From NCBI GenBank assembly GCA_017614895.1, contig JAGAAZ010000047.1, forward strand, positions 1 through 48,726: a stretch of DNA of 48,726 nucleotides. The letters are read 5' to 3'. This document shows, one piece after another, positions 36,917 through 37,251 of this stretch. Numbering within the stretch: position 1 is the first letter of the stretch; each line of letters opens with the position of its first letter. The notes beneath the pieces are model-generated. The model was given only the letters and a program-made list of their open reading frames with translations, had not been told where the DNA came from and did not search any database. The position numbers and the translations under genes were made by a program. The stretch is from Bacteroidaceae bacterium. GTDB taxonomy: Bacteria; Bacteroidota; Bacteroidia; Bacteroidales; Bacteroidaceae.

Positions 36917-37052
36917 AGGGTTAGTCAGTTTTTGGTTTATTGGGTTTGTTTTTGTTTGTGCTTATAAGACCGCTCACAGGACAAAAAGTTTAAGGGAGGA
37001 ACGAAAAAAGCAAAAACTTTGGATTTTATTTTGTCTTGTCTTGAGTTTTCAC

Positions 37053-37060
37053 TACCTTTG
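37053..37060 (+). promoter_or_regulatory. Bacteroidetes -7 element before the corA leader
   Basis: TACCTTTG matches TAnnTTTG, with TTG at 37031-37033 19 bp upstream. The corA start is almost 200 bp downstream, so the transcript has an unusually long leader. Confidence 0.7.
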
Positions 37061-37126
37061 CACTCGATTTCGGGAACACCTTTGAAATCATACAGAAAAG
37101 AGAGTATTCACTAATTAAAAACAACT

Positions 37127-37168
37127 ATGGACGATTATCCGGCGAATAGTATGAAGTGCCTGGGATAA
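37127..37168 (+). CDS. putative leader peptide upstream of corA
   Basis: ATG at 37127 opens a 13-codon ORF, MDDYPANSMKCLG, ending at TAA 37166-37168. It follows an A-rich stretch (AATTAAAAACAACT) typical of Bacteroidetes initiation sites and lies about 60 nt after the predicted transcription start. Its last codons overlap the 5' arm of a terminator-like hairpin. The acidic residues next to the start, with a nearby Pro, resemble peptides such as MgtL of enteric bacteria that abort translation at low Mg2+. Whether it is translated is inference; it is too short to judge by codon use. Confidence 0.5.
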   Translation: MDDYPANSMKCLG

Positions 37169-37216
37169 GACTCACCTCTCACGCGGAGTTGCCATGAGTC
37201 TTTGCCCCACCTTTTT
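37154..37216 (+). promoter_or_regulatory. terminator-like hairpin (possible attenuator) in the corA leader
   Basis: AAGACTCA (37167-37174) pairs with TGAGTCTT (37195-37202), an uninterrupted 8-bp stem. It extends outward through an internal loop to TGGG (37161-37164) with CCCA (37206-37209), and weakly to the AAG at 37154-37156 with the CTT at 37211-37213. A T-run at 37212-37216 follows. The 20-nt loop contains a small hairpin (CTC...GAG). The corA start is 35 nt further on. This arrangement, with an ORF over the 5' arm, is what an attenuator would look like. Confidence 0.6.
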
Positions 37217-37251
37217 ATTGTTCTAACATTAAAGCAAAGGTTCAGACAACA

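Follow-up and report, generated by a model that had tools for sequence, protein, structure and literature searches.

What does a 13-codon open reading frame (ORF) do in front of a magnesium channel gene of a Bacteroidaceae bacterium? The ORF lies upstream of corA in a stretch of 48,726 nucleotides (contig JAGAAZ010000047.1 of assembly GCA_017614895.1), which we call the window. An earlier note on this DNA had read the ORF as a candidate Mg2+-responsive leader resembling enteric MgtL, and had proposed that a ribosome finishing it prevents a terminator from forming and thereby raises corA expression. We analysed the ORF, the RNA structures next to it and the genes behind it by comparison of related genomes and by modelling. 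The features discussed below are collected in Table 1.

Table 1. Features of the corA leader region in the window and leader-like ORFs at other loci
Feature	Position	Strand	Remarks
Putative promoter, TTG + 19 nt + TACCTTTG	37031..37060	+	Reading of the sequence; fits the Bacteroidetes promoter consensus
Leader ORF with stop, MDDYPANSMKCLG	37127..37168	+	13 codons; ATG 37127, TAA 37166-37168
Leader codons 2 and 6	37130-37132, 37142-37144	+	CG end of codon 6 kept across Ala/Ser/Pro
P1 5' arm	37162..37174	+	Covers the last codons and the stop of the leader; P1 paired in 353/371 cells
P1 3' arm	37195..37207	+	37195-37205 doubles as first P2 strand
T5 3' of the hairpin	37212..37216	+	Window sequence
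P2 second strand	37234..37244	+	8-18 nt 5' of corA; paired in 371/374 cells
corA, 308 aa	37252..38178	+	CorA by Pfam, GMN kept
Leader-like ORFs MDDYHAE.../MDDYHPD...	L328:285-410; L327:309-407; L361:730-828

A short leader ORF ahead of corA

The gene downstream had been called a Mg2+ channel gene, and Pfam identifies its product as CorA (PF01544, E 1.3e-49). The protein retains GMN; it stays under the NCBIfam cut-off of TIGR00383 (106.5 versus 200.75 bits). The 13-codon ORF ending at 37168 is present as claimed. A corA leader about 185 nt long is likewise plausible, because a TTG at 37031-37033 is followed, after a 19-nt spacer, by TACCTTTG at 37053-37060, an arrangement which we take to be the Bacteroidetes promoter consensus.

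Of 42 near relatives, 41 have a TAnnTTTG box 5' of the leader, where about 4 were expected; the fuller promoter form, with TTG 17-21 nt ahead of TAnnTTTG, occurs in 19 of these 42. The box is also present in 42 of 50 representatives (loci below 85% CorA identity, five of them common to the order set) and in 38 of 49 order-wide loci. Given its presence in nearly all near relatives, a transcription start 3' of 37127, named beforehand as grounds for giving up the idea, is unlikely.

Conservation of the leader ORF

This CorA is present in 41 of the 45 genomes of the genus. Removal of redundancy from 110 loci picked by CorA similarity alone (L001-L110) left 81, of which 80 carry a leader that begins with MDDY; the exception is L016. 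Leader peptides of Prevotella-type relatives read MDDYHAEN and similar. When two mismatches were allowed, the nucleotide pattern of the leader matched in 117 of 349 family genomes. From this search 112 loci were taken, with ten more listed places, mostly ATGGCC forms, left out; removal of five loci without an identifiable corA start and of four duplicates gave 103, and 101 of them have the short leader, while L164 and L168 have a longer ORF in its place. Loci picked by leader patterns (L111-L135, L156-L267 and L355-L365) are uninformative on the share of corA genes with a leader; for the order and class sets, as for L001-L110, the choice depended solely on CorA.

Using a CorA profile on 295 Bacteroidales genomes, we detected this CorA subfamily in 63. 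Apart from the window, G118 (seen as L140, with no leader) and the partial CorA matches G292 and G293, these provided 59 order-wide upstream regions. An ORF of 7-32 codons starting M[DE][DEG], a criterion chosen after the peptides were seen, is found in 49 of the 59, compared with 0/59 on the reverse strand and a mean of 0.9 (maximum 4) in 200 base shuffles; the other 10 lack such an ORF. Of these 49 leaders, 36 have a Pro among residues 4-7 and 46 a Pro or His there. The peptides include MDDSNPRPYSKSIN, MDEGPYHSRINY, MDEDPVPKQVNIF and MDDYPPER. Outside the order, an MDD or MED leader is present at six of 23 class-level loci (L331-L336); the underlying CorA search covered 43 genomes, and 13 of its matches were not taken into the locus set. 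As a negative control we used CorA paralogues (13 loci, 12 with a start), of which only one of the 12 is preceded by an ORF that fits the motif, and this ORF has no Pro or His in residues 4-7. An Asp-Asp start with Pro nearby, ahead of a Mg2+ channel gene and reminiscent of MgtL, is therefore conserved far outside the window, contrary to the lack of conservation that the earlier note had named as a refutation, and the corA upstream regions, whose comparison the earlier note had recommended, do hold a conserved short ORF.

The ATGGAC of the leader is lost in L016 and L040. L040 belongs to the same assembly as L047, where an intact leader stands ahead of a second corA.

Genes that follow the leader

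The pattern ATGGAYGAYTAYYAYNCNGA occurs at 19 places in 384 genomes of the order. Seventeen of the 19 MDDY[HY]x[ED] places lead into Mg2+-transporter context, and 14 precede CorA of this subfamily. At L122/L327 and L361 the leader-like ORF overlaps the start of rsmA, with another CorA type after rsmA, and at L129/L328 it stands before the gene of a CNNM/CBS/CorC_HlyC protein. No Mg2+-transporter gene follows the remaining two places, L356 and L360.

The same peptide switch could respond to something other than Mg2+: to EttA or EF-P activity, to proline or tRNA supply, to polyamines or to an antibiotic that slows early elongation. We consider such a signal rather unlikely. Early acidic/Pro motifs of E. 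coli, MgtL included, respond to EttA according to PMC11282234, and the CNNM gene of L328 has a polyamine exporter as its best NCBIfam match, below the cut-off; but with the CNNM case set aside, the leaders examined precede CorA or an rsmA-corA pair. Mg2+ as the signal of the corA leader would agree with the enteric precedent. There, low Mg2+ is reported to make ribosomes drop off MgtL at its EPDP motif, which derepresses mgtA (PMC11282234, PMC11552253), and translation of corL is inverse to expression of corA, which is itself Mg2+-responsive (PMC11552253).

Peptide and nucleotide constraint

Beyond the near relatives, the analysis covered 144 MDDY leaders, many of them found through the nucleotide pattern with two mismatches allowed. 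Their codon 2 is GAC without exception, and codon 6 is GCG (132), TCG (7) or CCG (5). Within corA, GCG accounts for 12% of the codons for Ala, CCG for 15% of those for Pro and TCG for 23% of those for Ser. One could therefore see in the conserved stretch an RNA or DNA element, such as a metal-binding or protein site, to which the ORF is incidental. Codons 2 and 6, the latter CG-ending in 144/144 despite the rarity of GCG and CCG in corA, speak for such an element, with the reservation that many of these loci were gathered by a nucleotide pattern that permits two mismatches. However, the nucleotides vary across the order: codon 2 is GAC in 44, GAT in 4 and GAA in 1 of 49 loci, and Pro is encoded by CCG (23), CCT (13), CCC (4) and CCA (1). 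What stays constant despite these changes is the start, the stop, the acidic residues and the Pro or His. Rfam, too, gave no match. We hold an element with an incidental ORF to be improbable, and the stretch reads as primarily a peptide, with a fixation of codons 2 and 6 that goes beyond a pure peptide reading.

We also considered a queuosine sensor, suggested by the run of Asp, Tyr, His and Asn residues, and dropped it because order-wide peptides begin with acidic residues and Pro without that run.

Two helices that share a strand

A hairpin with its 5' arm on the last codons of the ORF had been described, and it is present: in P1 (37162-37207), 37162-37164 and 37167-37174 pair with 37205-37207 and 37195-37202, a small apical stem is formed by 37176-37178/37186-37188, and the 5' arm includes the stop codon. 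Taken alone, the P1 hairpin of the window is unremarkable (z -1.73; 13 of 200 shuffles equally stable). An alignment of 34 near relatives shows P1 paired in 353 of the 371 cells (95.1%; slid controls 35-66%). A second helix, P2, joins the 3' arm of P1 to a strand just before the corA start and is paired in 371 of 374 cells in the same alignment (99.2%; slid controls 24-50%). Double changes were seen in P2 at 37204-37235 (5 sequences) and 37199-37240 (4), and in P1 at one pair only.

Comparison of matched with swapped strands extended this beyond the near relatives. For P2, the RNA following each leader was paired either with the corA start region of its own locus or with those of other loci. 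Among the 50 representatives, P2 reached a mean of -15.0 kcal/mol when matched versus -10.6 when swapped; the match was favoured in 45 and not favoured in 5 (Wilcoxon 6.6e-13, a P value that ignores remaining relatedness). Eighteen of the 50 rank in the best 5% of their own swaps, and for the window's own P2, 8.7% of swapped starts pair equally well. Order-wide, the values were -13.9 versus -9.7 kcal/mol, with the match favoured at 41 of 48 loci and not at 7. For P1, where five of the 50 representatives were too short and were dropped, matched strands gave -14.3 versus -8.7 kcal/mol, with 40 of 45 in favour of the match and 5 not. We saw no tie between the start of P1 and the stop codon: across 94 loci its spread is 15.1 nt from the stop and 13.0 nt from the ATG, and its correlation with leader length is 0.01.

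All parts of a translational attenuator are found here, namely a leader ORF, an adjoining helix and a competing helix over the corA start region. Another arrangement would be translational coupling, with a leader that merely brings ribosomes which restart at corA, and the distance between the leader stop and the corA start (median 56 nt, order-wide) would suit it. It leaves the constant acidic start and the P1/P2 pairing unexplained, and we give it hardly any credence.

Terminator reading

The hairpin and the T-run behind it had been taken together as terminator-like. A run of five T residues (T5) does stand between leader and corA in the window, and 29 of the 42 near relatives have it, versus 18% after shuffling. 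Among more distant loci, 4 of 46 representatives have it (6% shuffled), as do 2 of the 49 order-wide ones (5% shuffled), near the shuffled rate, and a terminator scan of the window listed no site at P1/T5. With the T-run rare outside the near relatives and the scan negative, we reject an intrinsic terminator as the conserved output, and this part of the earlier note is not supported. The direction is reversed, too. A ribosome finishing the ORF was to give more corA by preventing the terminator; in the conserved structure a finished leader would release the strand covering the corA start, and corA would therefore be disfavoured, in line with an expected rise of CorA at low Mg2+.

Transcription attenuation, in which P1 and the T-run act as an intrinsic terminator unless a ribosome finishes the leader, thus has T5 of the window and its near relatives in its favour. 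Beyond the distant loci and the scan, it is opposed by P2, which is kept better than the T-run even in the near relatives, and by its consequence that failed leader translation would reduce corA. We regard it as very improbable; an extra transcriptional layer limited to the window's genus may exist.

Ribosome position and access to the corA start

We then modelled the effect of a ribosome on the leader by removing the RNA behind its leading edge and calculating the cost of opening the corA start (-20 to +3). In the model, a ribosome at codon 4 gave an opening cost of 7.8 kcal/mol and one at the stop codon a cost of 11.6, with the higher value at the stop in 44 of 50 representatives; order-wide the values were 7.8 and 12.4 kcal/mol (higher in 44/49). 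The modelled cost for the window itself rose from 7.3 to 9.3 kcal/mol, a change of only 2. When the segment of the P1 5' arm was shuffled, the early cost went up to 10.3 kcal/mol (42/50) and, order-wide, to 12.0 (46/49). In the model, the effect thus arises from that segment.

Measurements in Prevotella bryantii, as given in PMC3155529, indicate how such structures act: a structure of -5.2 kcal/mol over the start region lowered expression to about one fifth, and a hairpin of -9 kcal/mol at -21 did not lower it. On these results P2 should block corA and P1 should not. SD-like sites precede corA in 39 of 49 order-wide loci, whereas none of the window's 42 near relatives has one there, and none precedes any of the 49 order-wide leaders; the phylum is generally reported to be without SD sites (PMC3155529).

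Proposed mechanism

We propose that the ORF is the leader peptide of a translational attenuator of corA, in which a finished leader means off and ribosome loss at the acidic/Pro codons means on. We judge this to be probable. The ORF, P1, P2 and their shared strand come from comparison, and the effect of ribosome position from modelling; the drop-off of ribosomes, Mg2+ as the signal and the direction of the switch in the cell are inferred. A ribosome would translate a very short ORF that has two early acidic codons with Pro or His close behind. Having reached the leader stop, it would cover the 5' arm of P1 and so free the 3' arm, which would pair 8-18 nt before the corA start as P2 and leave corA untranslated. 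If ribosomes were lost or held at the acidic/Pro codons, as is reported for MgtL at low Mg2+, P1 would form, P2 would be excluded and corA would be translated. By analogy with enterics, low Mg2+ would thus abort the leader and yield more CorA.

In a wider sense, Bacteroidales and some relatives may have a ribosome-based Mg2+ sensor that arose independently of the enteric one, with ultra-short acidic/Pro leaders on which ribosome loss controls the translation of Mg2+ transporter genes and not termination, in a phylum whose start regions rely on the absence of structure. The genes concerned would be corA, the rsmA-corA pair and perhaps the CNNM gene. We lean towards this generalization with some caution.

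Relation to known systems

The corA leader shares with the MgtL/CorL type a short, early acidic/Pro ORF before a Mg2+ transporter gene and, from comparison and modelling, RNA structures that exclude one another and between which leader translation would decide. MgtL of mgtA in Salmonella and E. coli likewise has a very short early-acidic/Pro ORF before a Mg2+ transporter gene and two mutually exclusive RNA structures, according to PMC11282234 and PMC11552253. However, the output of MgtL is Rho-dependent termination, whereas the alternative helix of the corA leader covers the corA start region; the peptides cannot be aligned past the acidic/Pro start, and the phylum is a different one. CorL, in the same two enterics, is a leader ORF ahead of corA itself (PMC11552253). 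It has few acidic/Pro residues and a Rho output, in contrast to the leaders analysed here with two acidic residues at positions 2-3. We keep the corA leader, known here from comparison and modelling, apart from the MgtL/CorL group with its Rho-dependent output.

Rfam, which had been suggested as a check for a known element, gave 0 matches in the window at the gathering score, M-box included, and only implausible families at E up to 10. Both the M-box and other Rfam Mg2+ leaders are leaders of Mg2+ transporters as well, but the conserved parts found here are the ORF and P1/P2 only. In attenuators of the erm type, the position of a ribosome on a leader ORF decides which helix forms, and one of the helices hides the start of the gene that follows. 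This involves stalling on the leader (PMC5118997). There, however, the stalled ribosome frees the start and the signal is a drug; in the corA leader a ribosome at the leader end is predicted to mask the start, and the signal would not be a drug. By these analogies, the corA leader would combine a sensor like that of MgtL/CorL with an output like that of a translational attenuator, and its sign would be opposite to that of the erm type.

The earlier note knew of no such element in Bacteroidetes. In agreement, the literature searched, which covered few subscription-journal papers, contained no leader of this kind for Bacteroidota, and the accessible parts of PMC7366714, PMC8040213, PMC2864571 and PMC9723704 mention no relevant corA or magnesium leader. 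If our reading is true, this would be, as far as the literature searched shows, the first such leader described in Bacteroidota, and Mg2+ sensing through fragile acidic/Pro translation would not be confined to enterics but would have arisen in a distant phylum too, with a different output. The natural variants (MDD, MDE and MEE starts; Pro, His, Tyr or Ser as the fifth residue; lengths of 8 to about 30 codons) would then form a set for the study of ribosome-destabilising nascent chains.

Two further arrangements were seen among the loci. L220 (G724) has tandem leader ORFs 233 and 157 nt before corA, both encoding MDDYPAENMD. At class level, an MDDD ORF starts 7 nt 5' of the corA start in L344, L346-L349, L351 and L353, and an MNDD ORF in L352; these overlap corA in another frame (ATGGACG-ATG) and could represent the leader in an overlapping version.
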